Shown in pieces: positions 11,296 through 29,738 of a DNA stretch of 64,000 nucleotides. Every line of letters starts with the position of its first letter. The first letter of the stretch is position 1. Origin of the DNA: Flavobacterium sp. LPB0248 (GTDB taxonomy: Bacteria; Bacteroidota; Bacteroidia; Flavobacteriales; Flavobacteriaceae); assembly GCF_013388355.1 (NCBI RefSeq), contig NZ_CP058246.1:2170001-2234000 (forward strand). The letters run 5' to 3'. A program made the translations under genes and the position numbers. The notes below the pieces were generated by a model. It had not been told where the DNA came from. It searched no databases and saw only the letters and a program-made list of their open reading frames with translations.

Positions 11296-13431
11296 ATGAT
11301 TCCACAATTATTTGTAGAAAAGATCGATTTAGGTGATGGCAGAAGCATCACAATCGAGACAGGACGTTTAGCTAAACAAGCTGATGGTTCTGTAGTAGTT
11401 AGAATGGGCGACACTATGATTCTTGCAACTGCAGTTTCAGCTCGCACATCAAACCCAGGCGTTGACTTTTTACCATTAACGGTAGATTACCGCGAAAAAT
11501 TTGCAGCAGCAGGTCGTTTCCCAGGAGGTTTCTTTAAAAGAGAAGCACGTCCAAGCGACAGCGAAGTATTGACAATGAGATTAGTTGACCGTGTATTGCG
11601 TCCGCTTTTCCCAGACGATTACCATGCTGAAACACAAGTTATGATTCAGTTAATGTCTCACGACGAAGAAGTTATGCCAGATGCATTAGCTGGTTTAGCA
11701 GCTTCTGCAGCATTAGCTGTGTCAGATATTCCATTTTATAACTTAATTTCTGAAGTACGTGTTGCACGTATCGACGGAAAATTGGTTATCAACCCAAGTA
11801 GAGAAGAATTAGAAAAATCAGACATCGATATGATGATTGGAGCTTCTATGGATTCTGTAGCAATGGTTGAAGGTGAGATGAAAGAAATCTCAGAAGCTGA
11901 AATGATCGAAGCTATTAAGTTTGCTCACGAAGCTATCAAAGTTCAAATTCAGGCTCAATACCGTTTACAAGAAGCTTTTGGTAAAAAAGAAATTCGTACT
12001 TACGAAGGTGAGAAAGAAAACGAAGAAATTTACAAAAAAGTAAGAGAGGCAGCATACGATAAAATCTATGCTATTGCAAAAGTTGGTTCAGCTAAACACG
12101 AAAGAGGCGCTGCATTTGCTGAAGTAAAAGAAGAAGTTAAAGCTTTATTTACTGAAGAAGAATTAGCTGCTGATGGAGATTTAGTTTCAAAATATTTCTA
12201 CAAAACAAACAAAGAAGCTGTTCGTAATGTAGTTTTAGAATTAGGTGTTCGTTTAGATGGTAGAAAAACTACAGATATCAGACCAATCTGGTGTGAAACT
12301 GATTATTTACCAAGAGTACACGGTTCATCTTTATTTACACGTGGAGAAACTCAAGCTTTGGCTACAGTAACTTTAGGAACTTCTAGAGAAGCTAACCAAA
12401 TCGATTCTCCATCTGAACAAGGTGAAGAGAAATTCTACTTACACTATAACTTCCCTCCTTTCTCTACTGGTGAAGCAAAACCATTAAGAGGAACTTCAAG
12501 AAGAGAAGTTGGTCACGGTAACTTGGCTCAAAGAGCATTAAAAAATATGATTCCTGCAGATTGTCCTTATACAATTCGTGTTGTTTCTGAGGTTTTAGAA
12601 TCTAACGGTTCTTCTTCTATGGCAACAGTATGTGCTGGTACAATGGCTTTGATGGATGCTGGAGTTCAAATGGTAAAACCAGTTTCTGGAATTGCTATGG
12701 GATTGATTACTGACGGAGAGAAATTTGCTGTATTGTCTGACATCTTAGGAGACGAAGATCACTTAGGAGATATGGACTTTAAAGTAACTGGAACTGCTGA
12801 CGGTATTACAGCTTGTCAAATGGACATCAAAATTGATGGTTTACGTTATGACATTATGGAGCAAGCTTTGGCTCAAGCTCGTGATGGACGTTTACACATT
12901 TTAGGAAAATTAACTGAAACTATCGCTGCGCCAAGAGCTGACGTAAAAGCTCATGCACCAAAAATCATTACCAGAACTATTCCTGGAAACTTTATTGGAG
13001 CATTAATTGGACCTGGTGGAAAAGTAATTCAAGAATTACAAAAAGCTACTGGAACAACTATTGTAATTAACGAAGTTGATGAACAAGGTGTTATTGAAAT
13101 TTTAGGTACAGATCCTGCTGGAATTGAAGCAGTATTAGCAAAAATTGCTTCTATCACTTTCAAACCAGTATTAGGAGAAGCTTACGAAGTGAAAGTTATC
13201 AAAATGCTAGATTTTGGAGCTGTAGTTGAATATACTGCTGCACCAGGAAACGAAGTATTACTTCACGTATCTGAGCTTGCTTGGGAACGTACTGAAAACG
13301 TTGCTGACGTAGTTAAAATGGGAGATGTTTTCCAAGTGAAATACTTAGGAGTTGACCCTAAAACTAAAAAAGAGAAAGTGTCTAAAAAAGCACTTCTTCC
13401 AAGACCTCCGCGCGAGGAGAAAAAAGAGTAA
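11296..13431 (+). CDS. pnp: Polyribonucleotide nucleotidyltransferase (PNPase)
   Basis: A 711-residue enzyme of full family length that degrades RNA phosphorolytically from the 3' end. It has two RNase PH domains (first about 15-145, second about 320-540; [20 protein letters not shown] at the active-site region), the all-helical linker between them, a KH domain with the GPGG loop at 572-575, and a C-terminal S1 domain (about 620-690; [21 protein letters not shown]). Codon use is more G/C-ending than in the neighbouring cluster, as for a highly expressed gene. An AAGGA motif 8 bases before the ATG is unusual for this phylum. Confidence 0.97.
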
Positions 13432-13463
13432 TCAGATCTTAGTTTACTAAAGGTTTATTTATA

Positions 13464-13499
13464 AAAAACCCCAATTCATTTATTTGAATTGGGGTTTTT
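13464..13499 (+). terminator. Terminator of pnp
   Basis: A long stem (AACCCCAATTCA/TGAATTGGGGTT core) ends in a T run. The segment 13433-13499 resembles 20160-20223 after the first TonB module. Confidence 0.85.
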
Positions 13500-13585
13500 A
13501 AGTTTTATAGCTATTTTCCAATATAAAATCACAAGGTTAAAACACTAATCTACAACGTTTTCAGGAAACACATTATAGATTAAAT

Positions 13586-13692: not shown

Positions 13693-14499
13693 ATGAAAAA
13701 AGGTATTACAAGGTCAGGAATTAATAACACAATATTATTTATTACTATCTCTTTTAAATTCAAACTATATTGTAAAAACCAACCATCTAAAATCATAAAC
13801 CTCTCAACAATAGTTTTCATCCTGTTATTGCTTTCAATCAACGGTTTTTCTCAAACCAATGAAAAAAAAGAAGTCTCCAATTATTTTGACAAAATTGTTG
13901 GCGAAGAGATTTTAAACATCAATAACGGCAAAATTCATATTGATCCTTATAATTTAAAAAACAGCCATAATTATTATTTAGATAAAAACTTTGTTAAAGG
14001 ATCTGTTTTTTATGACAACCAGTTTTATGAAAATGTCCTCATAAAGTATGACATCTACAAAGATCAACTTGTTAAATCGTTTGCAAATAATACCGCATTC
14101 GGCATAACTCTGATAAATGAAAAAACAGATTATTTTTTCATTGAAAATAAAAAGTTTATCAATATTGACACTAAATATAAATTCCCCAAAGTCATCACTG
14201 GATTCTTTGAAGAAAAGTATTTAGGCAAAAAAATCTCCTTATACATTAAGCACTTTAAAACTGCAAAAGAAATTATAGTTGAAACTACTTTGTATACAGA
14301 ATTCAAAGAATTGAGCGATTATCAGCTTCTTTATAATTCAAAATTTACGCCTGTAAATACACAAAAAGAAATCCTCGCAATATTTCCTGACCTAAAAAAA
14401 GAAATAAAAGATTATTACAAAAAAAATAAACTTTTAGAAGAGACAGCCCCAAACCTATTTAAAGCAGATTTACTAAAATTTATTGATAACAATTTATAA
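13693..14499 (+). CDS. Exported protein of unknown function, TonB module copy 1
   Basis: A 268-residue protein from the ATG at 13693 (a TTG directly before it is less likely). A hydrophobic segment ending LLLSINGFSQ looks like a signal peptide, but about 35 residues precede it, so the true start may be internal. The mature part is rich in Lys, Asn and Tyr and shares its pattern with the protein at 20457: NYFDKIVG, LNINNGKIH, then an FYENVLIKYDI-like strand and a FFIENKKFI strand. No family is recognised. The 19-base gap to the TonB receptor suggests co-expression, and the conserved pairing in both module copies suggests a periplasmic or surface partner of the receptor. Confidence 0.7.
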   Translation: MKKGITRSGINNTILFITISFKFKLYCKNQPSKIINLSTIVFILLLLSINGFSQTNEKKEVSNYFDKIVGEEILNINNGKIHIDPYNLKNSHNYYLDKNFVKGSVFYDNQFYENVLIKYDIYKDQLVKSFANNTAFGITLINEKTDYFFIENKKFINIDTKYKFPKVITGFFEEKYLGKKISLYIKHFKTAKEIIVETTLYTEFKELSDYQLLYNSKFTPVNTQKEILAIFPDLKKEIKDYYKKNKLLEETAPNLFKADLLKFIDNNL

Positions 14500-14518
14500 G
14501 CTCTATTTCTAAATCTAA

Positions 14519-17281
14519 ATGAAAAAACCCTTTCTCTTCTGTTTATTTTTGTTACTGCCTCTCTTTCTTTTTTCTCAGGAAAAAAATGTTTCTGCAGCAT
14601 ATTCAAACGTAACACGAAAAAAAGCTATCGAAATAATTGAAAAAAACACATCTTTTCATTTCTATTTCGAAGACCAATGGCTATCTAAAGATGAACTTAT
14701 TTCGGGCGAATTTAAGAATACATCTATTACAGTAATTTTAGATGCTGTTTTTAATAACACAACCATAAATTATATTATTGACAACAATAATATAATTCTG
14801 AGCAATGGTCTTTTAATATCGAACCCGATTACTGAAAATTATTTCAAAAACACTGACAATAAAACTGTTAGCAAAATAAGTGCTTTGCAAGTTGTCCCGA
14901 TTTATAATAAACAGTATCTAAATGATTCTAAGAAAGATTCAGACTCTATAATTTCTTTAGGAAAACAGTCTTTAATAAACACGTCTCAAACTTATACCTT
15001 ATCAGGCTATATTAAAGACAGAATTTCAGGAAAACCAGAATACAATATTACCATCAAAATAAAAGACAAAGACATAAGCACCACAACTGATGCAAATGGC
15101 TATTATAGCTTTAGAGTTCCTGCAGGAATCAATATAATTGAGACACAATCATTAAATCATCAATCAAAGACCAAAAAGATTGTGCTTTATAATAATGGAA
15201 AGGTTGATTTTAATTTAGATGAAAATGTAAATGCACTTAAAGAAGTTGTTATTGAAAATAAAAGAACAAAAAATACCGCTTCGGCAGTTGCTGGTCTTAC
15301 AAGCATCAATGTTGAAAACATCAAAAATGTACCTTTAATTCTAGGTGAAAGAGATATTTTTAAAGTTGCGACAACACTCCCAGGGATAAAAACGGCAGGA
15401 GAAGGTTCTGCAGGATTTAATGTACGTGGAGGAAAAGATGATCAAAACTTGTTTTTACTTGACAACGCTTCTCTCTACAATCCATCTCACTTTTTGGGTT
15501 TCTTTTCTTCTGTAAATCCATTTACAACCAAAACAGCCGATATCTACAAAGGGAGTATTCCTGCTGAGTTTGGAGGACGTCTTTCTTCTGTTTTTGATAT
15601 AAAATCTAAAAGCGGAAATACCGAAAAAGTTTCTGGTGAAGCGGGAATTGGCCCTGTAATGAGTAATGTAACACTCGAACTTCCGATAGTAAAAGGAAAA
15701 TCAAGCTTGTTATTTGGCGGCAGAGCGAGTTATTCTGATTGGATTTTGAAGGCCATTAAGGAACCAGAATTAGACAATAGTCAAGCTTCTTTTTATGATT
15801 TGCTTATAAAATACAATCACCAAATCTCAAAAAAAGATGATCTGGAAACTTCCTTATATTATAGCCATGACAAATACAGTATTAATTCAGATTCTATCTA
15901 CAAATACAGCAATTTATTAGCAACAGTAAAATGGGATCACGATTTCAATCTAAAAAACAAATCTTCATTAATTGTTACAAATAGCCAATATAAATTCAAC
16001 ATCGATTACGATTCTCAACCAGAAAAATCATTTGATTACGGCTATAAAATCAATGAAACTCAGTTTGTTTTTAAAATGAAGTCCAATCTTAATGAAAAAC
16101 ACTTATTTAATTATGGCATTAGCAGTAAATTATACAATGTTGAACCTGGATTTCTTAAACCAACAACCAGCAACTCTCTAATTAAAAATATCACACTTGA
16201 AAAAGAAAAAGCATTAGAGTCGGCTTTATTCTTTACCGAAAATTATAAAGTCAACGATAAGTTTTTAATTAATTTAGGTTTACGCTATTCTTTCTATTCT
16301 GCACTTGGCCCTGCCACGCAAAACATCTACCAAGATGACCAGCCTAAATCTGACAGAACCGTTGTTGACACTAAGACTTATTCTAATAATGAGTCTGTAA
16401 AAACTTATGGTGGCTTTGAACCTAGATTTTCAGCTCGATATTTTATACTTCCAGATCTATCTATAAAAGCAAGTTTTGACAGAACATATCAATATATGCA
16501 TTTACTGTCTACAAACACCACTCAATCTCCAATGGATGTGTGGAAGCTTTCAGATTTAAATACTGAACCACAATCTTCTAATCAATTCTCGTTAGGAGTT
16601 TTCAAAAATATAATTGAGAAATCATTAGAATTAAGTGTCGAAGGTTATTATAAACGCTCTAAAAACATTCTGGATTACAAAGTTGGTGCCGAATTATTTT
16701 TGAACCAAAACATAGAAACTGAACTTCTTCAAGGAGAAGGAAAAGCTTATGGAGTTGAATTTTTAATCAAAAAAGAAAAAGGAAATTTTAACGGATGGTT
16801 AAGCTATACTTATTCGAGAGCTTTAATAAAACTGGATAGCAGATTTGACGCTGAAAAAATAAACAATGGAGATTATTTTCCTACGAATTATGACAAACCG
16901 CATGATTTTAGTGCTATTCTAAATTATAAATTCACAAAAAGGTATAGCTTGTCAACTAATTTTGTTTACCAAACCGGCAGACCTGTCACCTTCCCTATTG
17001 GATCTTATGACTTAACAGGAGAGCAATTTACTTTATACAGCAATCGCAACCAATATAGAATTCCAGATTATTATAGGCTAGATATAGGTCTAAATTTTGA
17101 AGGAAATCACAAAATAAAAAAACTCGCTCATAGTTTTTGGAACCTTTCAGTTTATAATGTTCTTGGGCGAAACAACCCTTACAATGTTTATTTTGTTACT
17201 GAAGATAAAAAAATCAAGGCTTACAAAACCTCTATTTTTTCTGTTCCAATTCCAACAATCACTTACAATATCAAGTTTTAA
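14519..17281 (+). CDS. TonB-dependent receptor with STN and carboxypeptidase-like domains, module copy 1
   Basis: A 920-residue outer-membrane receptor. The signal peptide ends near residue 20 (PLFLFSQ). It is followed by an STN-type domain (about 25-95; KKAIEIIEKNTSFHFYFED), a carboxypeptidase D regulatory-like domain (about 158-240; TDANGYYSFRVPAG), a plug (about 265-375; AGEGSAGFNVRGG, YKGSIPAEFGGRLSSVFDI) and the barrel. STN domains usually signal to an inner-membrane FecR anti-sigma, but no FecR is encoded here. It is followed 13 bases later by a DUF4249 lipoprotein, a known pairing in Bacteroidota. The ligand is unknown. A close paralog sits at 21201. Confidence 0.92.
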   Translation: MKKPFLFCLFLLLPLFLFSQEKNVSAAYSNVTRKKAIEIIEKNTSFHFYFEDQWLSKDELISGEFKNTSITVILDAVFNNTTINYIIDNNNIILSNGLLISNPITENYFKNTDNKTVSKISALQVVPIYNKQYLNDSKKDSDSIISLGKQSLINTSQTYTLSGYIKDRISGKPEYNITIKIKDKDISTTTDANGYYSFRVPAGINIIETQSLNHQSKTKKIVLYNNGKVDFNLDENVNALKEVVIENKRTKNTASAVAGLTSINVENIKNVPLILGERDIFKVATTLPGIKTAGEGSAGFNVRGGKDDQNLFLLDNASLYNPSHFLGFFSSVNPFTTKTADIYKGSIPAEFGGRLSSVFDIKSKSGNTEKVSGEAGIGPVMSNVTLELPIVKGKSSLLFGGRASYSDWILKAIKEPELDNSQASFYDLLIKYNHQISKKDDLETSLYYSHDKYSINSDSIYKYSNLLATVKWDHDFNLKNKSSLIVTNSQYKFNIDYDSQPEKSFDYGYKINETQFVFKMKSNLNEKHLFNYGISSKLYNVEPGFLKPTTSNSLIKNITLEKEKALESALFFTENYKVNDKFLINLGLRYSFYSALGPATQNIYQDDQPKSDRTVVDTKTYSNNESVKTYGGFEPRFSARYFILPDLSIKASFDRTYQYMHLLSTNTTQSPMDVWKLSDLNTEPQSSNQFSLGVFKNIIEKSLELSVEGYYKRSKNILDYKVGAELFLNQNIETELLQGEGKAYGVEFLIKKEKGNFNGWLSYTYSRALIKLDSRFDAEKINNGDYFPTNYDKPHDFSAILNYKFTKRYSLSTNFVYQTGRPVTFPIGSYDLTGEQFTLYSNRNQYRIPDYYRLDIGLNFEGNHKIKKLAHSFWNLSVYNVLGRNNPYNVYFVTEDKKIKAYKTSIFSVPIPTITYNIKF

Positions 17282-17293
17282 TTCATTTATCTC

Positions 17294-18478
17294 ATGCATA
17301 TGAATTTATCAATAATCAAAAAAAAATCGTTGGCCATTTTTGCATTTGCTTTTTTATCAAGTTGCACAGAACAATATGTATATCAAAATCAAGATTTTGA
17401 AGATGCAATGAGTGTTGAAGCCACATTAACAAATGAATTAAAACATCAGGAAATAAACATTTCACGAACAAGACTGGTTAACGATACAATAAAAAAACCA
17501 GAATCTGGAGCTAATGTTACTGTTGTTGATAGCGATGGAAATGTATTTAATTTTAACGAAAAAGATGGAAAATATATTTCTGTAAATGAATTTAAAGCAG
17601 AACCAAATAAAAACTATCAATTAAAAATAACTACCAGTTCTAGAAAATCGTATGTTTCTTCAACAGAAATTTTACCTACAGAAAATAGTATTGATCTAGA
17701 AACAGAGATTGCAGACAAAGATGGAGCTCGAGGGGTTCAGGTTAACGTTAAAAGTTTTGATCCAACCAATACTTCCAAATATTATCGATATGAATATGAA
17801 GAAACGTACAAAATAATAACTCCTTATAATATTCAAACACGTCTGAAATTAGTACAAAAAAGCGACTATTCTTATAGCTTCGAAAAAGTTCCTGCCGAGC
17901 CAAACACTCAAATTTGCTACACAACTAAGCACTCTACAGGAATAAGGCAAACCAATACCGTGAATTTAACTGAAGATCGTGTAAAATATCCTGTCCGTTT
18001 TATTAACAACACAGATTATATGCTAACAAATCGTTATAGCATAATGGTTTCTCAATACACGCAAAGTCAATCGGCTTATGACTACTATTACAAATCAAAA
18101 AAAATGATTGATTCTGGAGAATTACTATCTCCAAATCAACCAGGATATGTTTCTGGAAATATAAAATCAACAACAGATTTACATGAAAAAGTTGTGGGCT
18201 ATTTTGAAGTTGCATCTGTCTCTAAAAAAAGAATCTTTTTTAACTTCAACGACATTTTCCCCTTAGAAAAACCTGTTAAATATTTTCAAACTTGCGATGC
18301 GAGACCCTATAATTTTGATGAAATAGAGCGACAAAATTATCTCTTACTTAGCACACATGTTTATATAGCAGATGGTCCTGGAGGAATTATTCCCACCAGT
18401 TTCATAATGGTTGAAAAAAAATGTGGCGATTGCACAACATTCTCTTCTAACGTAATACCTTCATTTTGGGAAAATTAA
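17294..18478 (+). CDS. DUF4249 surface/periplasmic lipoprotein, module copy 1
   Basis: A 394-residue lipoprotein with lipobox FLSSC (Cys24), then CTEQYVYQNQDFEDAMSVE and Ig-like beta-sandwich repeats (EPNKNYQLKI, GVQVNVKSFDPTNTSKYYRY) typical of DUF4249. The C-terminus carries a CGDC pair followed by TTFSSNVIPSFW, shared with the other two copies in this window. DUF4249 proteins are encoded beside TonB receptors and are presumed to be substrate-binding or receptor-capping partners; no substrate is known. Two possible ATGs (17294, 17300) differ by two residues. The 3' end overlaps the next gene by 13 bases. Confidence 0.88.
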   Translation: MHMNLSIIKKKSLAIFAFAFLSSCTEQYVYQNQDFEDAMSVEATLTNELKHQEINISRTRLVNDTIKKPESGANVTVVDSDGNVFNFNEKDGKYISVNEFKAEPNKNYQLKITTSSRKSYVSSTEILPTENSIDLETEIADKDGARGVQVNVKSFDPTNTSKYYRYEYEETYKIITPYNIQTRLKLVQKSDYSYSFEKVPAEPNTQICYTTKHSTGIRQTNTVNLTEDRVKYPVRFINNTDYMLTNRYSIMVSQYTQSQSAYDYYYKSKKMIDSGELLSPNQPGYVSGNIKSTTDLHEKVVGYFEVASVSKKRIFFNFNDIFPLEKPVKYFQTCDARPYNFDEIERQNYLLLSTHVYIADGPGGIIPTSFIMVEKKCGDCTTFSSNVIPSFWEN

Positions 18479-20154
18479 ACATCAAATTAGCTTTTCTACT
18501 GCTACTAGTAAATTTTACTTTTAAAAGCAGTGCTCAAAACAATACTGTTTTGAGTGCAGAATCATTATTGGTTAAAACGAATACCTCGGTAATTCTAACC
18601 GGTGAAACTCTATATTACCAATTATACTGCTTAAGTAAGACGAATGTATTTTCTGATATTAGTGAAATTGCATACGTAGAAGTAATTAATGATAAGAAAG
18701 AAAGTGTCTTTAAAAATAAAATTAGCCTGAAAAACGGAATCGGATCTGGCGATTATTTTATTCCAACCATATTAAAAACCGGAAACTATAAACTTATTGC
18801 TTACACAAACTGGATGTTAAACAATAGTACAAACAACTTTTTTGAAAAGGATTTTACCATTATAAATCCATTTCAAGAAAACATCAATATGGTCATTGAT
18901 AGTTCTTATAACAAAGTTGACGTTTCTCAAGATAAAGCCAAAAACTCATCTGAAAATATTCTTTTAAGTCTGGATAAAGAAAAATACTCTAAAAGAGAAA
19001 AAGCTTCTCTTATAATACCAAAAACATTAGATCGAGGGAATTACTTTCTAAATATTAGGAAAATAGATCATATGTCTACAAACACAAATAACGAAACAAG
19101 TAATGCTAATATAAATTTAAACCAAGAAATAAAGATACTTCCAGAAACTAGAGGCGAAATTATAACTGGCTATATAATTGCAAAAGCTGCAAATTCTAGT
19201 TTAGATTCTAAAATAGTTACATTATCTGTCTCGGGAAAAAATTTCATTTTCAAAACATCTAAAACAGATCGCAACGGAAAATTCATTTTTTTAATAGATA
19301 AACAAACCAGTACATCAGACTGTTATGTGCAGTTATCAGAACTTGATAAAGAAAATTACACTATTGTAATAGATAAAAATCCAAGTCCAGATTTATCAAA
19401 TTTAGTTTTCTCCAAAAAGACCTTTATTTCAGCTAAATATTTAAAAGCGATTCAGGAGCGTTCTCTAGCAACTCAAGTCGAAAACGTATATTTTTCACAG
19501 AAAAAAGACAGTCTTATTGAAACTGATAATAACGATTTCTTTTTTCAACCTACCGAAAAAAAATATAATCTTGATGATTTTGAAAGATTTAGAACGTTTA
19601 AAGAAACAATAATAGAAATTGTTATCGAACTTAACTTTAAAGATTATAATCAAGTGCCTTCCCTGTATTTAAGAGACATCAGATACAATATCACACAATC
19701 TCCCGAACCATGTCTTGTTTTGGTTGACGGACTACAAATTCAGGATATAAATGCACTATTAAATTACAACACTTATCAAATTGAAAGTATTAGCGTTGTA
19801 GATAGACCTTATTGTTATGGGCCTAAAATATTTAATGGAATAGTCAGTGTCATTACAAAAAACAAAGATTTTGCCACTATTTATAACGACAAAAATGTTT
19901 TAAAAACCACGATTTTAAGACCCGAACCTGCAAAAGTATATTTTGAACCAAAATACAATACATCAAGCAACCTTAGCCGAATTCCTGATTATAGATATCA
20001 ATTAGTTTGGAAACCCAATATTGTTTTTAAAAATAACGACATGACAATTCCTTTTTATACATCTGATATTTCTGGAGATTATCAGATCAGTTTAGAAGGA
20101 ATTACCGAAACAGGAAAGTATGTTCATTTTTATAAAACATTCAAAACGGAATAA
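18466..20154 (+). CDS. MG2-like plus TonB-plug-like exported protein, module copy 1
   Basis: A 562-residue protein from a TTG at 18466 inside the end of the DUF4249 gene, giving a good signal peptide (MGKLNIKLAFLLLLVNFTF, cleavage after SSAQ). No ATG is available nearby. Residues about 35-135 resemble a macroglobulin MG2 domain (ILTGETLYYQLYCL, LKTGNYKLIAYTNWML). About 225-295 is a transthyretin-like beta-sandwich (TDRNGKFIFLID). About 413-467 resembles a TonB plug core (CLVLVDGLQIQD, IFNGIVSVITK), yet no barrel follows; about 95 residues of beta structure end the protein. It probably sits in the periplasm or at the outer membrane with the receptor. Function is unknown. Confidence 0.8.
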   Translation: MGKLNIKLAFLLLLVNFTFKSSAQNNTVLSAESLLVKTNTSVILTGETLYYQLYCLSKTNVFSDISEIAYVEVINDKKESVFKNKISLKNGIGSGDYFIPTILKTGNYKLIAYTNWMLNNSTNNFFEKDFTIINPFQENINMVIDSSYNKVDVSQDKAKNSSENILLSLDKEKYSKREKASLIIPKTLDRGNYFLNIRKIDHMSTNTNNETSNANINLNQEIKILPETRGEIITGYIIAKAANSSLDSKIVTLSVSGKNFIFKTSKTDRNGKFIFLIDKQTSTSDCYVQLSELDKENYTIVIDKNPSPDLSNLVFSKKTFISAKYLKAIQERSLATQVENVYFSQKKDSLIETDNNDFFFQPTEKKYNLDDFERFRTFKETIIEIVIELNFKDYNQVPSLYLRDIRYNITQSPEPCLVLVDGLQIQDINALLNYNTYQIESISVVDRPYCYGPKIFNGIVSVITKNKDFATIYNDKNVLKTTILRPEPAKVYFEPKYNTSSNLSRIPDYRYQLVWKPNIVFKNNDMTIPFYTSDISGDYQISLEGITETGKYVHFYKTFKTE

Positions 20155-20191
20155 GTTCTCAGATCTTACTGCGCTAAAGGTCTATTAGAGA

Positions 20192-20223
20192 AAACCCCCA
20201 ATTCGGTAATGAATTAGGGGTTT
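20192..20223 (+). terminator. Hairpin after module copy 1
   Basis: The stem AAACCCC(C)AATTC/GAATTAGGGGTTT has one mismatch and a short T run only, so termination may be incomplete and allow read-through into copy 2. Confidence 0.6.
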
Positions 20224-20412
20224 CAGCTTATAGAAGCAAACATTATTTTTTAAATTTAAGCTGATTTGAAAATTAAAGATCGCTGTTGCAGCCTTTTCAA
20301 CCCAATTCCTAACTTTTCTTCTAAAATATACTATAAATATAGTTTCAAATCAATTCATAGAATTTTTATTACATTTTAACAATATTACGTGATTTTTATA
20401 ACATTTTTTTAA

Positions 20413-20420
20413 TACTTTTG
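20413..20420 (+). promoter_or_regulatory. -7 element of module copy 2
   Basis: TACTTTTG fits TAnnTTTG exactly. It overlaps the most upstream possible TTG start (20418), so translation must begin further down, which favours the TTG at 20457. No clear -33 TTG was found. A small palindrome (20330-20343, ACTATA-AA-TATAGT) lies about 70 bases upstream. Confidence 0.55.
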
Positions 20421-20456
20421 AAATCCATCAATCCAAAAACAAAAATTACGTTTCCT

Positions 20457-21200
20457 TTGAAAAATTACAAAAAAAAAATCATTTATCTTTCGATATTTGC
20501 AAGCCTGTTAAAAATATCGTACGCACATTCCCAATCCACTGAAAAATCCTCACTGTATGATTACTTCGATGAAGCGGTTGGAAAAGACAACCTAAACATC
20601 AATAACGGAATCATTCATAGCGAGTCTTTCCGCCCCTTAGAAGGTAAAAACAGATATTACATTGATGAGTTTAATCTTGGAGATATAAGTTTCGAAGGTC
20701 AGATTTATTCAAATGTTAATCTTAAATACGATATTCTTGTCGACCAAGTCATCTACAAACAGAATGGTTCTTCAGAGAATGCACCTATAAACCTAATTAA
20801 CAATAAGGTTGATTACTTCTTTATTAAAAACAAAAAATTTGTCAACCTAAAAGAAGAATCAGTAAAATTTCCTTCTATAATAAAAGGTATTTATGAGGAG
20901 ACATACATTGGAGACAATGTCTCTCTTTACATCAAGCATACCAAAGAAAAAGTAAAGTCTTTTCAGGCAGATATCATCTACTATAATTTCATTTATAAAA
21001 TAGGTTATGTCTTAAAATATAACAACTATTTCTACAAGGTTGAAACAGAAAAGGATTTCAAGAAAATTTTTCCAAATCTTAAGAAAGAAATAAGCAACAT
21101 TTATAGTACCGATAAAAAATTAGAACGCTCCAACAAGCCCCAATTCATGGAAAATCTAACGAAACAAATCAATGGTCTTTTAAAAAAAAGTTCTAATTAA
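20457..21200 (+). CDS. Exported protein of unknown function, TonB module copy 2
   Basis: A 247-residue paralog of the protein at 13693. The TTG at 20457 yields a convincing signal peptide (MKNYKKKIIYLSIFASLL, ending YAHSQ); an upstream TTG at 20418 falls inside the promoter -7 element. Conserved features with copy 1 are YDYFDEAVG, LNINNGIIH, a YSNVNLKYDILVDQ strand, FFIKNKKFV and a C-terminal FPNLKKEI helix. No catalytic motif or named family is recognised. The stop codon is directly followed by the ATG of the receptor gene, indicating tight coupling. Confidence 0.72.
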   Translation: MKNYKKKIIYLSIFASLLKISYAHSQSTEKSSLYDYFDEAVGKDNLNINNGIIHSESFRPLEGKNRYYIDEFNLGDISFEGQIYSNVNLKYDILVDQVIYKQNGSSENAPINLINNKVDYFFIKNKKFVNLKEESVKFPSIIKGIYEETYIGDNVSLYIKHTKEKVKSFQADIIYYNFIYKIGYVLKYNNYFYKVETEKDFKKIFPNLKKEISNIYSTDKKLERSNKPQFMENLTKQINGLLKKSSN

Positions 21201-23984
21201 ATGAAAAAAATTACTCTTATTCTATTTCTAATTGCCTTTCAACAAATCATATATTCTCAAGTAATCAGTGACAAAATATCTGTTGATTTTAAAAATGCCA
21301 ATATAAAAACTGCTATTCAAGACATTGAAAAAGTGTCTTATTATAAATTTTATTTTGATGAAAAATGGTTTGAAAATGACAGCACATCTATAACCAAACA
21401 ATATAAAGAAATAAAAATTGGTGAAGTCCTTGAAGACGTTTTTCAAAATACAAGCTTTAATTTTTATATTTCTGAAAACAAGGTTATAGTAACTAATAAC
21501 AGTATTATCTACAGTCAATTGCCAGATGATTATTTTGGGATTCCGCTAGAAAGAGATGAAAACGGACAAATAACTCCGATATTTTATCAGCAATACGACT
21601 CAATAAAAAAGACAAACTCTCGAAATCCTAATAAAAACATTCGAGATCTTGTTCTTATTGGTAAAGAAGTCAAAAATCAAAAAAAGAAATCTACTTATAC
21701 ACTATCTGGATTTATAAAGGGCGGAAAAAACAATTCTGGCCTTGCCAATATTGTAGTAAAAATACCAAATTCCGAATTTTCAGCTGTAACAGACAAAAAA
21801 GGGTTCTACAGCTTGCAAGTTCCAGGAGGATTAAATGCAGTAGAAACCGAAAGTTTCTCCTATAATAAGGTCACTAAAAATATAATGGTTTATAATGATG
21901 GTGCGCTAAATTTTTCTTTAACGGACAATATAAACCAACTGGATGAAGTACTTATTAAAACCAATAAAAGTAAAAGCGCAAAATCTGCTATAACAGGAGT
22001 AACAACAATTGATTCTGAAGGAATTAAAAACGTCCCTTTGGTGCTTGGAGAGCGTGATATCCTTAAAGTTGCTTTAACTATGCCTGGAATAAAAACTGCT
22101 GGCGAAGGTTCAGCAGGATTCAATGTTAGAGGTGGTAAAGAAGATCAAAATCTATTCTTATTAGACCATGCTACTTTATACAATCCGTCACATTTCTTTG
22201 GCTTTTTTACAGCGCTAAACCCTTATACAACTAAAAAAGTAGACATTTATAAAGGAAGTATTCCTGCGGAATTTGGAGGAAGATTATCATCTGTTTTTGA
22301 TATTTCATCAAAAAGCGGCAATGTCAACGAATTTCAAGGTGAAGGCGGTATTGGACCTGTGACCAGCAATTTAATGGTTTCAACTCCAATTGTAAAAGGG
22401 AAATCAAGCCTAGTTGCGGGAGGAAGAGCAACTTATTCAGATTATATTTTAAAAAGTCTTGACGATGAAAATTTAAAAAACAGCCAAGCTTCATTTTATG
22501 ATCTAATTCTAAAATACAACCATAAAATAAATGCCAGTAACGATATTGAATCTACCTTATATTACAGTCACGATAAATTTAGTGTTTCTTCAGATTCTTT
22601 ATACAAATACAGCAATAGATTAGCGACTTTAAAATGGAATCATACTTTTAATGAAAAAAATAAAGGCTCTCTGATTGTTACTAATAGTGAATATAAATTC
22701 AATATTGATTATGAATCTGAAGGAGTAAACAATTTTGATTTTGGCTATAAAATCAACGAAACTCAGGCAATGATCAAAATGAATTATTTGTACAACGAAA
22801 AACACAAATTTAGTTATGGTATTTCGACAAAATTATATTCTGTTGATCCTGGATATTTAAATCCAAAAAATCCTGAAACTATTTTGGTTCCTGTTGATGT
22901 AGAAACAGAAAAAGGCTTAGAATCTGCCGCATATATTGGTGATAATTTCAAAATAAGCGATAAATTTCTTCTTGATTTCGGTTTGCGCTATTCCACTTTT
23001 GCTGCTTTAGGAAAATCTACTCAGAGAATTTACGAGGAGAATAAGCCTATAAGTGATGCTACTGTAATTGACACTAAAACTTATGGCAACAATGAAGTGA
23101 TTAAAAGATATGGCGGGCTTGAACCGAGAGTCGCTGCGAGATATTTTATTACAGATGATTTTTCTGTAAGAGCAAGTTACGACAAAACATATCAGTATAT
23201 CCATCTACTATCTAACAACACCACACAATCGCCAACTGACATTTGGAAGCTTTCAGATTTAAACGTTAAACCAGAAAGTGCACAGCAAGTTTCTTTAGGT
23301 TTCTACAAAAATTTAAAAGATGGTGATGTTGAACTTAGTTTAGAAGGATATTATAAAAGATCTAAAAACATCTTGGATTACAAAGTTGCAGCTGAATTAT
23401 TATTGAATGAAAATATAGAAACTGAACTTTTACAAGGTGAAGGCAAAGCTTATGGTGTTGAAGTTTTGTTAAAGAAACAAGTTGGAAAGTTAAATGGATG
23501 GCTTGGCTATACGTATTCAAGATCATTGATAAAACTTGACAGTCAGTTCGAGCAGGAAAAGGTAAACAACGGAAAATACTTCCCTTCAAACTTTGATAAA
23601 CCGCACGATTTCAGTGCTGTTTTAAACTATAAAATTACTAAGCGTTATAGTTTTTCAAGCAACTTTACATATCAAACCGGAAGACCAATTACATACCCGA
23701 TTGGAAAATACGATTATGGTAATGAGCAATACACCTTATATAGTGATCGTAATAAATTTAGAATTCCAGATTATTTCAGACTTGACATTGGTCTAAATAT
23801 CGAAGGAAATCATAAAATTAAAAAGTTAGCTCATAGTTTTTGGAATATTTCAGTGTATAATGTTTTAGGAAGAAACAATCCTTACTCGGTATTTTTTGTT
23901 ACTGATAAAGGACAGATTAAAGCTTACAAAACATCTATTTTTTCTATTCCAATTCCTAGTATTACTTACAATTTCAAGTTCTAA
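21201..23984 (+). CDS. TonB-dependent receptor with STN and carboxypeptidase-like domains, module copy 2
   Basis: A 927-residue paralog of the receptor at 14519 with the same order: signal peptide (about 1-19), STN (about 25-95; FKNANIKTAIQDIEKVSYYK), carboxypeptidase-like beta-sandwich (about 168-250; TDKKGFYSLQVPGG), plug (about 275-385; GEGSAGFNVRGGKEDQN, IPAEFGGRLSS) and barrel. Similarity to copy 1 is very high in plug and barrel and low in the STN domain and the linker after it. That suggests a retained substrate class with divergent periplasmic signalling or partner contacts. The first base of its ATG abuts the preceding stop. Confidence 0.92.
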   Translation: MKKITLILFLIAFQQIIYSQVISDKISVDFKNANIKTAIQDIEKVSYYKFYFDEKWFENDSTSITKQYKEIKIGEVLEDVFQNTSFNFYISENKVIVTNNSIIYSQLPDDYFGIPLERDENGQITPIFYQQYDSIKKTNSRNPNKNIRDLVLIGKEVKNQKKKSTYTLSGFIKGGKNNSGLANIVVKIPNSEFSAVTDKKGFYSLQVPGGLNAVETESFSYNKVTKNIMVYNDGALNFSLTDNINQLDEVLIKTNKSKSAKSAITGVTTIDSEGIKNVPLVLGERDILKVALTMPGIKTAGEGSAGFNVRGGKEDQNLFLLDHATLYNPSHFFGFFTALNPYTTKKVDIYKGSIPAEFGGRLSSVFDISSKSGNVNEFQGEGGIGPVTSNLMVSTPIVKGKSSLVAGGRATYSDYILKSLDDENLKNSQASFYDLILKYNHKINASNDIESTLYYSHDKFSVSSDSLYKYSNRLATLKWNHTFNEKNKGSLIVTNSEYKFNIDYESEGVNNFDFGYKINETQAMIKMNYLYNEKHKFSYGISTKLYSVDPGYLNPKNPETILVPVDVETEKGLESAAYIGDNFKISDKFLLDFGLRYSTFAALGKSTQRIYEENKPISDATVIDTKTYGNNEVIKRYGGLEPRVAARYFITDDFSVRASYDKTYQYIHLLSNNTTQSPTDIWKLSDLNVKPESAQQVSLGFYKNLKDGDVELSLEGYYKRSKNILDYKVAAELLLNENIETELLQGEGKAYGVEVLLKKQVGKLNGWLGYTYSRSLIKLDSQFEQEKVNNGKYFPSNFDKPHDFSAVLNYKITKRYSFSSNFTYQTGRPITYPIGKYDYGNEQYTLYSDRNKFRIPDYFRLDIGLNIEGNHKIKKLAHSFWNISVYNVLGRNNPYSVFFVTDKGQIKAYKTSIFSIPIPSITYNFKF

Positions 23985-23988
23985 AATC

Positions 23989-25215
23989 ATGAAAAGTTTC
24001 ATATATAAAATTAGTCTTTTATTCCTTCTTGTACTTGTGGCTAGCAGTTGTACAGAACAGTATGTTTTTCAGAACAATGATTTTGAAAGTGCTCTTGTAG
24101 TAGAAGGAACCATTACAAATGAACTTAAAAATCAAACAATAAGACTCTCACAAGTCTATCAACTAGAAGAAACAGGTCCCAAACTTGAAAAAGGAGCACA
24201 TGTTTTCATTTCTGATGATCAAGGAAACGAATATCAATTTGAAGAAAAAGATACAATCTATTCTTCTATAACTCCTTTTAAAGCAGAACCTGGAAGAAAA
24301 TACCAATTAAAAATCAGAACAAGTGTGGGTAAAAACTATACCTCTGACGAACAGGTTCTAACAACCGAAACCAAAATTGACAATGTCACTGCAACCGTTG
24401 AGAATGTTAACGGACAAAGGGGGGTGCAAATAAATGTAAATAGTTTTGACCCAGCCAATTCTTCAAAATATTACAGATATGAATATACAGAAACTTATAA
24501 AATCATAGCACCAATGTGGGACAATAGGGAAGCAATTATAGTCGATATTCCCGCAGATCCAGGAAATCCAATTGAAGGGACTCCTCCATCACCCGCTTCA
24601 GAAGTTATTGTTGTAAGACCAAGAAATAAAGAAACTAAAACATGCTTTTCTACTAAAAAATCAAATGAAATAATCTTGAACAACACCAATAGTCTAAGCG
24701 AAGACAGAGTACATTTTCCTGTACGTTTTATAAGTAATCAGAATTACATAATCACAAATCGCTATACTATTTTTGTAAAACAATATGTTCAAAATTTAGC
24801 AGCATATACTTATTATAGAACACTAAAGGAATTATCTTCTTCCGGAAGTATCCTTTCTCCTAAACAACCAGGTTTTTTCAATGGGAACATGAGGTCGGTA
24901 GAAAATCCCACCGAAAAAGTTATTGGCTTTTTTGAAGTATCTGCAGTTTCATCTGAAAGAATATTTTTTAACTATGCCGATTTATTCCCGAATGAACCTC
25001 TTCCTCCATATTATGAAACCGATTGTAATATACGTGATTTTCTTGACTGTATAGGAGATCCTCCTTGCGCAGCCATACAGCTACGTTCTATATTAAAAAG
25101 TCGTGAACTAGTACATTTTTCATCTAGTTCATCTTCATACGCATTAGTAAAACCTGCTTGCGGAGATTGCACTTCATTTTCGTCCAATATCGTTCCTCCT
25201 TTTTGGGTAGAATAA
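23989..25215 (+). CDS. DUF4249 lipoprotein, module copy 2, first of a tandem pair
   Basis: A 408-residue lipoprotein with signal MKSFIYKISLLFLLVLVASSC and the same CTEQY start to the mature protein as the other copies. The ATG at 23989, four bases after the receptor stop, is preferred over an in-frame start at 23896 inside the receptor gene. Beta-sandwich segments FKAEPGRKYQLKI and GVQINVNSFDPANSSKYY match DUF4249. A Pro-rich insert (about 183-202, containing IEGTPPSPASE) distinguishes it from its neighbour. The end is CGDCTSFSSNIVPPFW. Confidence 0.88.
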   Translation: MKSFIYKISLLFLLVLVASSCTEQYVFQNNDFESALVVEGTITNELKNQTIRLSQVYQLEETGPKLEKGAHVFISDDQGNEYQFEEKDTIYSSITPFKAEPGRKYQLKIRTSVGKNYTSDEQVLTTETKIDNVTATVENVNGQRGVQINVNSFDPANSSKYYRYEYTETYKIIAPMWDNREAIIVDIPADPGNPIEGTPPSPASEVIVVRPRNKETKTCFSTKKSNEIILNNTNSLSEDRVHFPVRFISNQNYIITNRYTIFVKQYVQNLAAYTYYRTLKELSSSGSILSPKQPGFFNGNMRSVENPTEKVIGFFEVSAVSSERIFFNYADLFPNEPLPPYYETDCNIRDFLDCIGDPPCAAIQLRSILKSRELVHFSSSSSSYALVKPACGDCTSFSSNIVPPFWVE

Positions 25216-25233
25216 ATTCATTAATAAAAAGAA

Positions 25234-26424
25234 ATGCAACATTACATCAAATATAAAATATCAGCAATATTTTTTCTGTCACTTATTTTTAATAGCTGTA
25301 CAGAACAATATGCTTTTAAGAATGGTGATTTTGAAAGTGCACTAGTCGTTGAAGGCACAATTACAAATGAGCTCAAAAATCAAACCATTAAGGTTTCCAA
25401 AGTTTATCAACTGGAAGAAACGGGACCGAAATTTGAAACTGGCGCAAACGTATATGTCTTAGATGACCAGGGAACCGAATATCAATTTGAAGAAAAAGAC
25501 ACTGTTTATGCATCTATCACTCCATTCAAAGCCGAACCAGGAAGAAAATATCAATTAAAAATTAGAACAAAAGAAGCCAAAAATTATTCTTCGGATCAAC
25601 AAACTTTAACAACAGAAACAAAAATTGATAATGTAACCGCAACTGTAGAAACGGTTAACGGACAAAGAGGTGTTCAAATAAACGTAAATAGTTATGACCC
25701 TACTAATACCTCAAAATATTACAGGTATGAATACACAGAAACTTATAAAATTATAGCTCCGATGTGGGATTTTCGGAAAGCAACAACAGAGGGAACTTCT
25801 ATTTTCATAAGCCCGAGAACAAAAGAAACAAGAACATGCTATTCCAGTAAAAAATCTGAAGAAATTATCTTAAATAGTACAAATAATCTCAGTGAAGATA
25901 GAGTTCATTTCCCTGTTCGTTTTATTAGTGATCAAAATTATATTATATCCCATCGTTATACAATTTTTGTAAAACAATATATCCAAACTTTAGCTGCTTA
26001 TAGTTTTTACAAAACAATGAGGGATATATCTTCATCTTCAGGAAATATCCTTTCACCAAAACAACCGGGCTTCTTTTATGGAAATATAAAATCAGATGAA
26101 AATTCGGATGAGAAAATTATAGGTTTTTTTGAAGTTTCTGCTGTTTCATCTGAAAGAATTTATTTTAATTATGCCGATTTATTTCCTAAAGAACCGTTAC
26201 CGCCATATTATGAAAGCAATTGTCTAATACAGAAATTTAAAAATTGTGATAATGCAGAGAACCCTGAATGCAATGGTCCTATTTTACGTGCACGAATTGA
26301 TAATTACACACTAGCGCACTTTTCTTCAAGCGAAGCTGAAAATCTTTATTATATGGTAAATACTCCATGTGGAGACTGTACTTCATTTTCTTCTAATATC
26401 ATTCCTCCTTTTTGGGTAGATTAA
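25234..26424 (+). CDS. DUF4249 lipoprotein, module copy 2, second of a tandem pair
   Basis: A 396-residue lipoprotein (lipobox FNSC, mature start CTEQYAFKN), closely similar to the protein just upstream throughout and clearly a recent local duplication. It lacks the Pro-rich insert of its neighbour. A variable Cys-containing segment before the end (NCLIQKFKNCDNAENPEC) and the C-terminal CGDCTSFSSNIIPPFW follow the family pattern. The two may bind different ligands or form a heteromer with the receptor; this is inference. The gap to the upstream copy is 18 bases. Confidence 0.88.
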   Translation: MQHYIKYKISAIFFLSLIFNSCTEQYAFKNGDFESALVVEGTITNELKNQTIKVSKVYQLEETGPKFETGANVYVLDDQGTEYQFEEKDTVYASITPFKAEPGRKYQLKIRTKEAKNYSSDQQTLTTETKIDNVTATVETVNGQRGVQINVNSYDPTNTSKYYRYEYTETYKIIAPMWDFRKATTEGTSIFISPRTKETRTCYSSKKSEEIILNSTNNLSEDRVHFPVRFISDQNYIISHRYTIFVKQYIQTLAAYSFYKTMRDISSSSGNILSPKQPGFFYGNIKSDENSDEKIIGFFEVSAVSSERIYFNYADLFPKEPLPPYYESNCLIQKFKNCDNAENPECNGPILRARIDNYTLAHFSSSEAENLYYMVNTPCGDCTSFSSNIIPPFWVD

Positions 26425-26441
26425 TACAATTTTTAAATCTC

Positions 26442-28232
26442 ATGAAACACCTTTCCATACATAACCAGAATAATATTTCAATTAGAATCAAACAATTGCT
26501 GTTTTTGATGTTTTTGTTTATTCAAATCGAATTTGCTTGCGCCCAGAGCTCGCAAAACAAAAATTCATTGCCTAATATTAACGATCAGGAAACTATCTTT
26601 ATCCATTCAAATACAACAACTTTTTTGACTGGCGAGACATTATATTTCAAATTATACTGTCTAAATCCATTAAATAACAAAACTAGCCTAATAAGCAAAA
26701 TTGCTTATGTTGAATTGATTGACAGTGAAAAAAAACCACTCCAAAAAAACAAAATTTACCTTGATAAAGGAATTGGAACTGGAGATTATTTTATACCTAC
26801 AACCTTAAAAACAGGAAATTACAAAATTGTAGCGTATACAAAATGGATGCTCAATAATGTTAATTCTCAAAAATATGAAATTGATATTTTTATTATTAAC
26901 CCATTTCAGACTCAAGAACCAAATGACAATATTACATTTGACATAACCAAGCCAGGCAAATCGAATACAGCAATTCAAATCACAAATTCGAACTCTGAAA
27001 ATGATAAAAGAATCGATTTATTATTTGACAAAGAAAGCTATTATACAAGAGAAAAGGTTGGCTTAAAATTAAAGCACCTAACCGAAACAATTGAAAAAGG
27101 GAATTATTCTGTTTCGATACGAAAAACAGATCAAATTCCGACATTAAAACAATTAAGTCCATCAGAGTTTGCAAAAAAAACTGCTGAAAACTATGTTAAT
27201 ACTCCAAACAGTTTTGATTATATTCCAGAAATTAGATCAGAATTAATTACTGGAAATCTAACTTCAAATACTAATCAAAACGTAGCCAACAAATCGATTG
27301 CGTTATCGCTACCAGGTAAGGAGTATGTTTTAAAAATTGTAAAAACAAATGCTCAGGGAAAATTTGCATTTTTACTGGATCAATTTCCTAATTTTCCAAA
27401 TGCAATTTTACAGGTACTTGATGAAAACCGAAATGATTATACGATCAATCTAGATCCGTTTCCAAAATTTGACGCTTCTTCATTACAGTTTACATCAAAA
27501 CTAAATTTATCGCCAGAATTAAAAAATGATATTGAAGAAAGATCAACAGCAAGTCAAATTCAAAATGCCTATTATCAAATCAAGAAAGACAGTTTGGTTA
27601 CAGAGGCTGTTATGAATCCTTTTTTTACTACAATAGAAAAATCATATCTTTTAGATGATTATACCAGATTTCCAACTTTAAAAGAAAACATAGTAGAGAT
27701 TATTGTAGAACTTTATTATAGAAAAAATAATGGAAAATATCAGCTCTTTGTAAGAAACAATCAAAAAGATTTACAAATTTTTGGACCACCATTGGTACTT
27801 GTTGACGGGCTTTTAATTCAAGATCCAAGTGATCTTTTTGAGTACAACATGGCAAATGTTAGTAAAGTTAGTTTAATTACAGAACCTTATGTATATGGTC
27901 CAAATTTATATGGCGGATTAATTAGTTTCGAAACCAAAAACAATGAATTTTCAGAAAATTATGCGAAGAAGTATCTGAAAACAATGGAGCTTCAGCGTCC
28001 TAATCCTGAAAAAGTCTATAATAATCCGGATTATTCATCAGGCAATAAATTACAGAGAATTCCTGATTACAGATACCAACTATTATGGAAACCAGATATT
28101 AAACTAGATACAAAAGAAGAAAACTTATCATTTTACACTTCTGATATTAAAGGAAATTTTGAGGTCGTTCTAGAAGGTTTTACTGAAAATGGACACCCAG
28201 TTTACGTTTCAAAAAATATTACAGTAAAATAA
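26442..28232 (+). CDS. MG2-like plus TonB-plug-like exported protein, module copy 2
   Basis: A 596-residue paralog of the protein at 18466. The ATG at 26442 is preferred; a TTG at 26412 overlaps the DUF4249 gene as in copy 1. The signal segment is long (MKHLSIHNQNN and a hydrophobic core ending FACAQ). MG2-like residues are about 45-150 (FLTGETLYFKLYCL, LKTGNYKIVAYTKWML), a central beta-sandwich is about 245-325, and the plug-like segment is about 445-500 (PLVLVDGLLIQDPS, GPNLYGGLISFETK). The end of both paralogs is conserved (RIPDYRYQLLWKPDI, SFYTSDIKGNFEVVLEG), so the C-terminal domain is not decayed. It closes the module and is followed by a strong terminator. Confidence 0.8.
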   Translation: MKHLSIHNQNNISIRIKQLLFLMFLFIQIEFACAQSSQNKNSLPNINDQETIFIHSNTTTFLTGETLYFKLYCLNPLNNKTSLISKIAYVELIDSEKKPLQKNKIYLDKGIGTGDYFIPTTLKTGNYKIVAYTKWMLNNVNSQKYEIDIFIINPFQTQEPNDNITFDITKPGKSNTAIQITNSNSENDKRIDLLFDKESYYTREKVGLKLKHLTETIEKGNYSVSIRKTDQIPTLKQLSPSEFAKKTAENYVNTPNSFDYIPEIRSELITGNLTSNTNQNVANKSIALSLPGKEYVLKIVKTNAQGKFAFLLDQFPNFPNAILQVLDENRNDYTINLDPFPKFDASSLQFTSKLNLSPELKNDIEERSTASQIQNAYYQIKKDSLVTEAVMNPFFTTIEKSYLLDDYTRFPTLKENIVEIIVELYYRKNNGKYQLFVRNNQKDLQIFGPPLVLVDGLLIQDPSDLFEYNMANVSKVSLITEPYVYGPNLYGGLISFETKNNEFSENYAKKYLKTMELQRPNPEKVYNNPDYSSGNKLQRIPDYRYQLLWKPDIKLDTKEENLSFYTSDIKGNFEVVLEGFTENGHPVYVSKNITVK

Positions 28233-29683: not shown

Positions 29684-29738
29684 TTTACCAAAAAGTTTTT
29701 TGATTCTTATATTTAAAACAAAATAAATCGTTTCATTT

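Follow-up and report, generated by a model that had tools for sequence, protein, structure and literature searches.

A conserved gene unit of TonB receptor, DUF4249 lipoprotein and MG2-plug protein in Flavobacterium

Why should a TonB receptor gene occur twice in close succession, each time accompanied by the same three kinds of partner gene? The question is raised by a 64,000-nucleotide stretch of the Flavobacterium sp. LPB0248 genome (assembly GCF_013388355.1, contig NZ_CP058246.1, positions 2,170,001 to 2,234,000 of the forward strand), hereafter the window, in which nine open reading frames (ORFs), all on the + strand, form two adjoining cassettes, A1-R1-D1-M1 (13693-20154) and A2-R2-D2a-D2b-M2 (20418-28232). 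A is an exported protein, R an STN-type TonB receptor, D a long DUF4249 lipoprotein and M an MG2-plug protein. An earlier note on this sequence had described two adjacent copies of one A-R-D-M order, with an extra DUF4249 gene in copy 2 and an unknown exported protein as the first gene; this layout is borne out, and Pfam finds no family for A. Sequence comparison establishes the content, usual order and conservation of the unit, the constant place of M beside one receptor clade, the ancestry of M and the variation among cassettes. The unit is real and old: judged by gene content, R, D and M are its core and A is a frequent but dispensable fourth part.

Co-occurrence of the four genes

Co-occurrence was assessed in two receptor-based samples, a family sample of 149 genomes in which five candidates per genome were scored with a receptor profile, and a phylum sample of 247 genomes in which the three best receptor candidates per genome were scored. 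The family sample yields 30 full-length receptors at 1159-1938 bits, two of them the window's, set off by a sharp split in score. Below them come two odd receptors (818 and 806 bits) and then ordinary receptors at 630 bits or less, whose alignments start no earlier than position 113, bar one row with in-frame stops. M lies on the same contig as 29 of the 30 full-length receptors, and 27 of the 28 from outside the window share strand and contig with both M and D. At the thirtieth, in genome G079, the contig stops after A-R-D, and another G079 contig starts with D-M. Of the two odd receptors, the one at 818 bits runs into a contig end and is accompanied by D and M; the other (806 bits, G139) is related to the clade but lacks the STN part, and no M adjoins it.

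Across the phylum sample, M stands beside all 29 receptors at E ≤ 1e-190, which come from 23 genomes. Its presence was judged by coordinates for 16 and read directly for seven in families f3, f4, f9 and f10 and six in family f8; among the 16, the window's two, the three of G032 and those of G350, G377 and G381 were also read directly. In f8 the M proteins have diverged (489-782 residues, 93-193 bits), and a search for M at 1e-30 overlooked them. Outside the window, 18 of 29 family-sample modules contain A, as do 7/7 of the f3, f4, f9 and f10 modules and 3/6 of those in f8.

We also examined a set of named loci, Flavobacterium or near, comprising the best 80 of 431 M matches (75 loci), which therefore leans towards relatives of M2. 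R and D are present in all 75 and A in 74, the remaining locus being cut by a contig end. Having been selected on M, these loci cannot show how often R lacks M, which the receptor-based samples can. As a control, 20 loci of ordinary DUF4249-type receptors were searched: 19 have a DUF4249 match and none has M or A, even when the models were widened to other families. The usual order of the unit is A-R-D(1-4)-M, with one to four D copies per cassette; M precedes D in L052, L055 and L201, and D follows M in L033 and L034. Within the genus Flavobacterium, M is found at 1e-60 in 43 of 150 genomes, eight of which have two or more. An orphan long DUF4249 gene with a CGDC tail occurs at L060:9173-10432 with no receptor or M adjoining.

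The earlier note had argued that parts kept together through duplication act as one machine, and would have counted the unit as refuted had most genomes with the receptor lacked the first gene and the MG2-plug gene. M proves near-constant and A frequent, so the idea of one unit stands; its premise of a simple duplication is not supported, as discussed below.

The pairing of a TonB receptor with DUF4249, which the same note had called known, has a precedent in B. thetaiotaomicron, where the TonB-dependent transporter BT2172 and the DUF4249 protein BT2173 are reported to act together and to have the same loss-of-function phenotype (PMC11003636). As in that pair, a receptor with plug and barrel stands next to a DUF4249 lipoprotein in the window (R1-D1; R2-D2a-D2b). 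The type, judged through the 20 control loci, is a lone pair of an ~800-residue receptor and a short DUF4249 protein, whereas the window pair is not alone: R has an added STN region, M always and A often adjoins, and D is ~400 residues long with a CxxC tail that the control-locus partners (269-351 residues) lack. One ordinary pair, at L006, also has an STN-like region.

Ancestry of M and the STN region of the receptor

Profile comparisons show M to be related to plug-bearing alpha-2-macroglobulins, but shortened and without a thioester. Across 575 columns, the M family can be aligned with seven MG2-plug proteins of 787-845 residues (E 1.7e-45), and these align with the first ~900 residues of five ~1520-residue proteins of the same phylum (E 2e-102); compared directly, the M family matches the five at E 2.3e-17. 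Both ~1520-residue relatives that were scanned (1505-1533 residues) carry MG2, Plug, A2M, TED, bMG10 and A2M_recep domains in Pfam. Thus M resembles bacterial macroglobulins in its alignment with the N-terminal ~900 residues of the plug-bearing ones, and differs from them in length (489-878 residues across the loci read) and in lacking the thioester and C-terminal macroglobulin domains, with no TED, A2M receptor or bMG10 match in Pfam among 31 M proteins. MG2 itself is matched in 18 of the 31 at E ≤ 0.1, always weakly (best 0.00012), and rises above the cut-off (37.5 bits) in a longer M of another family; on M1 its match is at 0.12.

The tentative plug assignment of M comes from longer homologues, direct profile comparison of M with R being weak. 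Two longer M homologues match the plug at 6e-11 and 7e-7, and M aligns to their family through the plug region. A 1340-residue chain at L168:3837-7856, which matches the M profile, has STN and CarboxypepD domains in front, an M-like middle and a Plug near its end; two ~840-residue MG2-plug genes follow it. M measures 788-878 residues in f3, f4, f9 and f10, which suggests that the ~600-residue form is probably a later shortening.

The full-length macroglobulins have a companion of their own. Their ~1520-residue genes adjoin a ~930-residue gene encoding CarboxypepD and a SusC barrel with no plug. Six such barrel genes, three of them cut by the edge of the fetched stretch, match the SusC/RagA model TIGR04056 from positions 209-282 to 979-980, and Pfam Plug has no match in the three complete proteins; four of the macroglobulins match the same model from 42-69 to 207-344 (E 2e-51 to 3e-47). 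In the family sample, both genes occur in the same eight genomes and are directly adjacent in 8/8 at the thresholds used, one pair being interrupted by contig ends. Among 228 genomes sampled from the phylum, four have a full-length macroglobulin match, and in three of these (one already counted) the plug-less barrel adjoins. The fourth match, G424:C23:66362-70867, is a thioester macroglobulin-like ORF of a distant family; it passes over model positions 594-765, beside the plug site, and no plug-less barrel match was found in that genome. The other five barrel matches of this sample are of ordinary SusC length (1059-1128 residues). By sequence, this appears to be a SusC receptor that has been split, its plug supplied in trans by a macroglobulin. 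Apparent split loci of this kind include L176:1180-3957 with the next gene, L179:3076-10512, L172-L175 and L177. Narrow, all-terms literature searches returned nothing linking macroglobulin or MG2 with a TonB receptor, plug or SusC.

It is possible, and we suggest it tentatively, that these loci and the window share macroglobulin-gated outer-membrane transport. The full macroglobulin would plug the SusC barrel in trans, and the window M would dock through its plug-like domain and the receptor STN as a second periplasmic gate, the receptor keeping its own plug.

Pfam places DUF4249 on all three D proteins (E 5e-36 to 5e-43) and barrel, plug and CarboxypepD_reg_2 on both receptors. STN falls below the cut-off on R2 and is not matched on R1; a relative in another family matches at 2.5e-7. 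Among the relatives, one exceeds the STN cut-off (30.8 bits) and two others lie below it. An STN-region profile trained on the window's family matches all 16 cassette receptors tested from other loci (two sets, of ten and six) but no ordinary control receptor out of 20. An ordinary DUF4249-type receptor at L006:8143-10758, in the window's own genome (G000) and outside the window, has a short D and an STN-like region (E 5.7e-7). Since no M or A accompanies this STN-like region within 16 kb, STN does not require M, and a strict STN-M rule was rejected; on these profile matches the association is strong, not strict. The profile also matched a weakly related 784-residue receptor and its 308-residue neighbor in L160.

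Evolutionary distances point in the same direction. With 35 representatives of 99 modules (receptors below 850 residues and same-class repeats dropped), and after correction for barrel and plug, the partial correlation of STN with the plug/C-terminal part of M is 0.32 (p 0.001); A correlates with that part of M at 0.38 and with MG2 at 0.32, and STN with D at 0.07. The long D proteins have features of their own: all 77 aligned, drawn from the window and the named loci, share a CxxC tail at the C-terminus and, apart from the lipobox cysteine, four invariant ones. In control loci the short D partners have no such tail, and a medium-length D of another receptor type (L067) has the motif. In the f8 loci without A (L202-L204), D also lacks the tail, as read by eye in the three loci.

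Comparison with solved structures was less informative. The D model is confident and beta-rich. For A, the fold search gave nothing convincing and no clear PDB match (best Foldseek E 0.15, best Z 2.9), and sequence searches of solved structures gave nothing useful for D or A. A two-row R profile found no solved structure at 1e-5, and M profiles gave weak matches, including complement C3/C4 and the colicin I receptor, or chance ones.

Divergent cassettes between pnp and rpoD

The earlier note had read the locus as a tandem duplication in which the barrels stayed nearly alike as the STN domains and first genes diverged. Protein identity between copies 1 and 2 is 41% for A (104/252), 60% for R (549/914) and 41.5% for M (232/559); among the D proteins it is 46% for D1-D2a (180/389), 46% for D1-D2b (177/386) and 73% for D2a-D2b (285/390). 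DNA repeats at a 6703-nucleotide register match at 76-80% across stretches of 160-300 nucleotides, far above chance. By region, R1 and R2 are 34% identical in the STN region, 27% in the linker, 43% in CarboxypepD, 75% in the plug and 67.5% in the barrel. The likeness of the barrels had thus been overstated. The contrast is also family-wide: among the 35 representatives, mean identity is 0.70 for the plug, 0.62 for the barrel, 0.33 for STN, 0.31 for the linker and 0.30 for A. STN and linker change fast across the whole family, and alike barrels beside diverged STN regions thus reflect its general rate pattern and are not specific to the window pair.

In a receptor tree (FastTree, 84 rows, comprising receptors of more than 600 residues from 33 hand-picked loci of the 75 named, plus the unnamed ones), the cassette 1 receptor (W1) forms a cluster of support 100 that includes F. 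nitrogenifigens, F. zhairuonense, LC2016-01 and TAB 87, and that of cassette 2 (W2) falls in a different set. W1 and W2 each stand nearer to cassettes of other species than to one another, and the W1-W2 plug/barrel similarity is at the family-wide level. Recent tandem duplication of the cassettes was rejected on the grounds of these separate, old clades, with D2a/D2b as an exception. Gene conversion of barrels between the copies was likewise rejected, because 60-75% plug/barrel identity is typical between lineages and W1 groups with L071, L099, L135 and L126.

Instead, the locus is an array of divergent cassettes, apparently swapped in and out among Flavobacterium strains, between two border genes, rpoD and a gene that we take from its sequence to be pnp (polynucleotide phosphorylase). 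Flavobacterium genomes with the unit have one to three divergent cassettes in this interval, in varying combinations; F. johnsoniae CI04 (L081), for instance, shows a single one. Both borders are in view in 44 of the 75 named loci, and more than one M in 14 loci from 13 genomes, with up to three modules. The nearest named locus among the best 80 of 431 matches, from Flavobacterium nitrogenifigens, has an M 94% identical. Neighboring cassettes differ in lineage and order, an M2-type preceding an M3-type in L127 and following it in L092 and L138. One-to-one pairing of A class with M class holds for 77 of the 80 modules, the A, R and M classes being single-linkage groups at thresholds set by the analyst. 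On a tree of rpoD and rpe (72 tips, 15 classes), the cassette adjoining rpoD undergoes at least 33 changes of class, against 43-52 (mean 47) in 50 label shuffles; the count is rough, given the modest resolution of the tree (23 of 69 inner branches starred). Instead of being transferred, cassettes may also have been lost differentially from a longer ancestral array.

The features of the two cassettes and their borders are collected in Table 1. The D2a ORF is open from 23896, and the ATG given there is its likely start, with a lipoprotein-like signal after it; an ATG at 26442 is also possible for M2. The imperfect terminator copy between the cassettes has counterparts elsewhere: at 15 other M-A junctions, five score 64-102, one is barely above background (44) and nine are at background, random stretches (n = 300) reaching at most 43. 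Most junctions do not exceed background, and a score of 82 is also reached where other genes follow M, so the copy is a hint only. Promoter scans, including one for TANNTTTG, which we take to be the Flavobacterium-type motif, were uninformative, at about chance level.

Table 1 Features of the two cassettes and of the borders of the interval in the window
Feature	Position	Strand	Evidence
Upstream hotspot border, presumed pnp	11296..13431	+	homologue in view in 48/75 named loci
A1, first gene of cassette 1, exported protein without family	13693..14499	+	ORF; no family in Pfam; homologue of A2 and of the genes that open other cassettes
R1, TonB receptor, 920 residues: N-terminal STN-like region, CarboxypepD, plug, barrel	14519..17281	+	barrel 4e-21, CarbopepD_reg_2 1.4e-11, Plug 4.1e-8; full-length alignment with R2
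D1, long DUF4249 lipoprotein, 394 residues	17294..18478	+	DUF4249 5.3e-36; lipobox-like cysteine; C-terminal CGDC motif
M1, MG2-plug protein, 562 residues	18466..20154	+	TTG start, overlapping D1 stop
Junction between cassettes 1 and 2, imperfect copy of pnp 3' terminator stretch (13432-13505)	20159..20235	+	local score 78 vs maximum 53 in 200 shuffles
A2, first gene of cassette 2	20418..21200	+	TTG start as read; homologous to A1; model predicted local distance difference test (pLDDT) 83
R2, STN-type TonB receptor, 927 residues	21201..23984	+	barrel 4.7e-27, CarbopepD_reg_2 8.4e-9, Plug 4.5e-8, STN 0.0019 (sub-cutoff)
D2a, long DUF4249 lipoprotein	23989..25215	+	DUF4249 5.3e-43
D2b, second DUF4249 lipoprotein of cassette 2	25234..26424	+	DUF4249 1.5e-41; 73% identity to D2a; beta-rich model, pLDDT 90
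M2, MG2-plug protein, 606 residues from TTG 26412	26412..28232	+	MG2 0.00043
Downstream hotspot border, rpoD-type sigma factor, 287 residues	31932..32795	+	sigma70 regions 1.2-4; homologue in view in 71/75 named loci

Between cassette 2 and rpoD (28370-31848), the window holds an Lcl_C-type lipoprotein, an extracytoplasmic function (ECF) sigma factor (29739-30290) and a 522-residue protein. Of the 75 named loci, 26 have a homologue of this sigma gene in view, which indicates that the interval carries other variable cargo too. Recurrent gene sets of other kinds occur in the interval at L078:1619-4567, L074:2245-3903 and L122:11827-17653; examples are a 130-577-248-residue set, whose 248-residue gene is response-regulator-like by eye, and a pair of ~200 and 320 residues.

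A candidate importer and its rivals

What might the cassettes do? On balance, we slightly favor the reading that the operon encodes one TonB-driven outer-membrane importer with D as a surface lid and a periplasmic complex of M, A and STN. D, a lipid-anchored beta-sandwich protein, would bind substrate outside and cover the receptor, and R would be a gated barrel opened by TonB. The periplasmic STN and CarboxypepD domains of R would dock M as a thioester-less mini-macroglobulin with a plug-like domain, and A would join this complex. M and A would then receive substrate or control gating, and each cassette would thus have its own partner set. We infer the surface location of D, the periplasmic one of M and A, their contacts and import itself. 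The TonB barrel and plug of R, together with the reported joint action of the receptor-DUF4249 pair in B. thetaiotaomicron, support import and the R-D part.

The nutrient importers SusCD and RagAB offer a comparison. Both these systems and the window cassettes combine an outer-membrane TonB barrel with a lipoprotein, and lid-like gating is a likely point of resemblance. Unlike SusC and RagA, R1 and R2 have no match to TIGR04056 up to E 1; D is a DUF4249 protein with a beta-rich model, whereas the SusD fold is helical, and M and A have no SusCD counterpart.

Several observations weigh against the importer. Outside the window, 11 of 29 family modules (one truncated at a contig end) lack A, as do 3/6 f8 loci, and at L006 neither M nor A occurs in the fetched 16 kb. 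The locations of D, M and A were judged from signal sequences by eye. The fold matches of D are generic beta-sandwiches (best Z 7.5, to the IL-7 receptor). Pfam Plug is not among the matches of the 31 M proteins, and the plug-like region of M compares weakly with the R plug profile (P 0.031). The partial correlations are modest, that of A with STN (0.11, p 0.056) not being significant, and an STN domain usually denotes signaling.

This last point leads to the main rival, a cell-surface signaling relay, which we consider unlikely. In such a relay, R would act as a TonB-dependent transducer, its STN domain transmitting ligand binding to M and A and from there to gene regulation. As in FecA-type transducers, R has an STN domain before the plug; two relatives show weak FecR_C-like matches (0.003-0.005) in the same region, cassette 2 has an ECF sigma gene downstream of it, and STN distances track the C-terminal part of M. 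However, the ECF sigma homologue is in view at only about a third of the named loci (26/75), and the window gene stands with its own 522-residue partner. No FecR match in Pfam was found among the nine cassette proteins, the proteins to which the scan was applied. Unlike in the FecA-type systems, a FecI/FecR pair is not part of the conserved unit, and the MG2-plug partner occupies its place. Searches for literature on the STN domain with Flavobacterium johnsoniae and lipoprotein found none.

Less probable again is a variable surface locus, in which phage or bacteriocin pressure acts on R and D as a receptor and cassette swaps change the exposed parts. The class changes next to rpoD (at least 33 over 72 tips and 15 classes), the differing combinations and orders at one locus and the variation in D copy number all fit such a history. 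For whole regions, though, the pattern of conservation is the opposite of that predicted, A, linker, STN and the M middle being most variable and plug and barrel most conserved; M and A are also left unexplained. Finally, a protease- or toxin-trapping device in which M acts like alpha-2-macroglobulin would agree with the homology of M to the macroglobulin N-terminal part and with the thioester domain of its full-length relatives, but M stops short of TED, and the absence of TED, A2M receptor and bMG10 from all 31 members makes this very improbable.

The receptor-DUF4249 pair is already known; the four-gene unit was not found described in the literature searched. The usual picture of a TonB receptor is a gate made of one chain, which in Bacteroidota has a lipoprotein as its lid. 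Here the conserved unit also includes a mini-macroglobulin bearing a plug and an exported orphan protein, which points to a periplasmic half of TonB machines that no paper among those searched was found to describe. The link to plug-bearing macroglobulins is the most surprising part of these findings. The divergent cassettes arrayed between pnp and rpoD form a natural collection in which to look for specificity determinants, and several questions become directly testable: the roles of M and STN, the ligand of the DUF4249 lid and the supply of a plug in trans.

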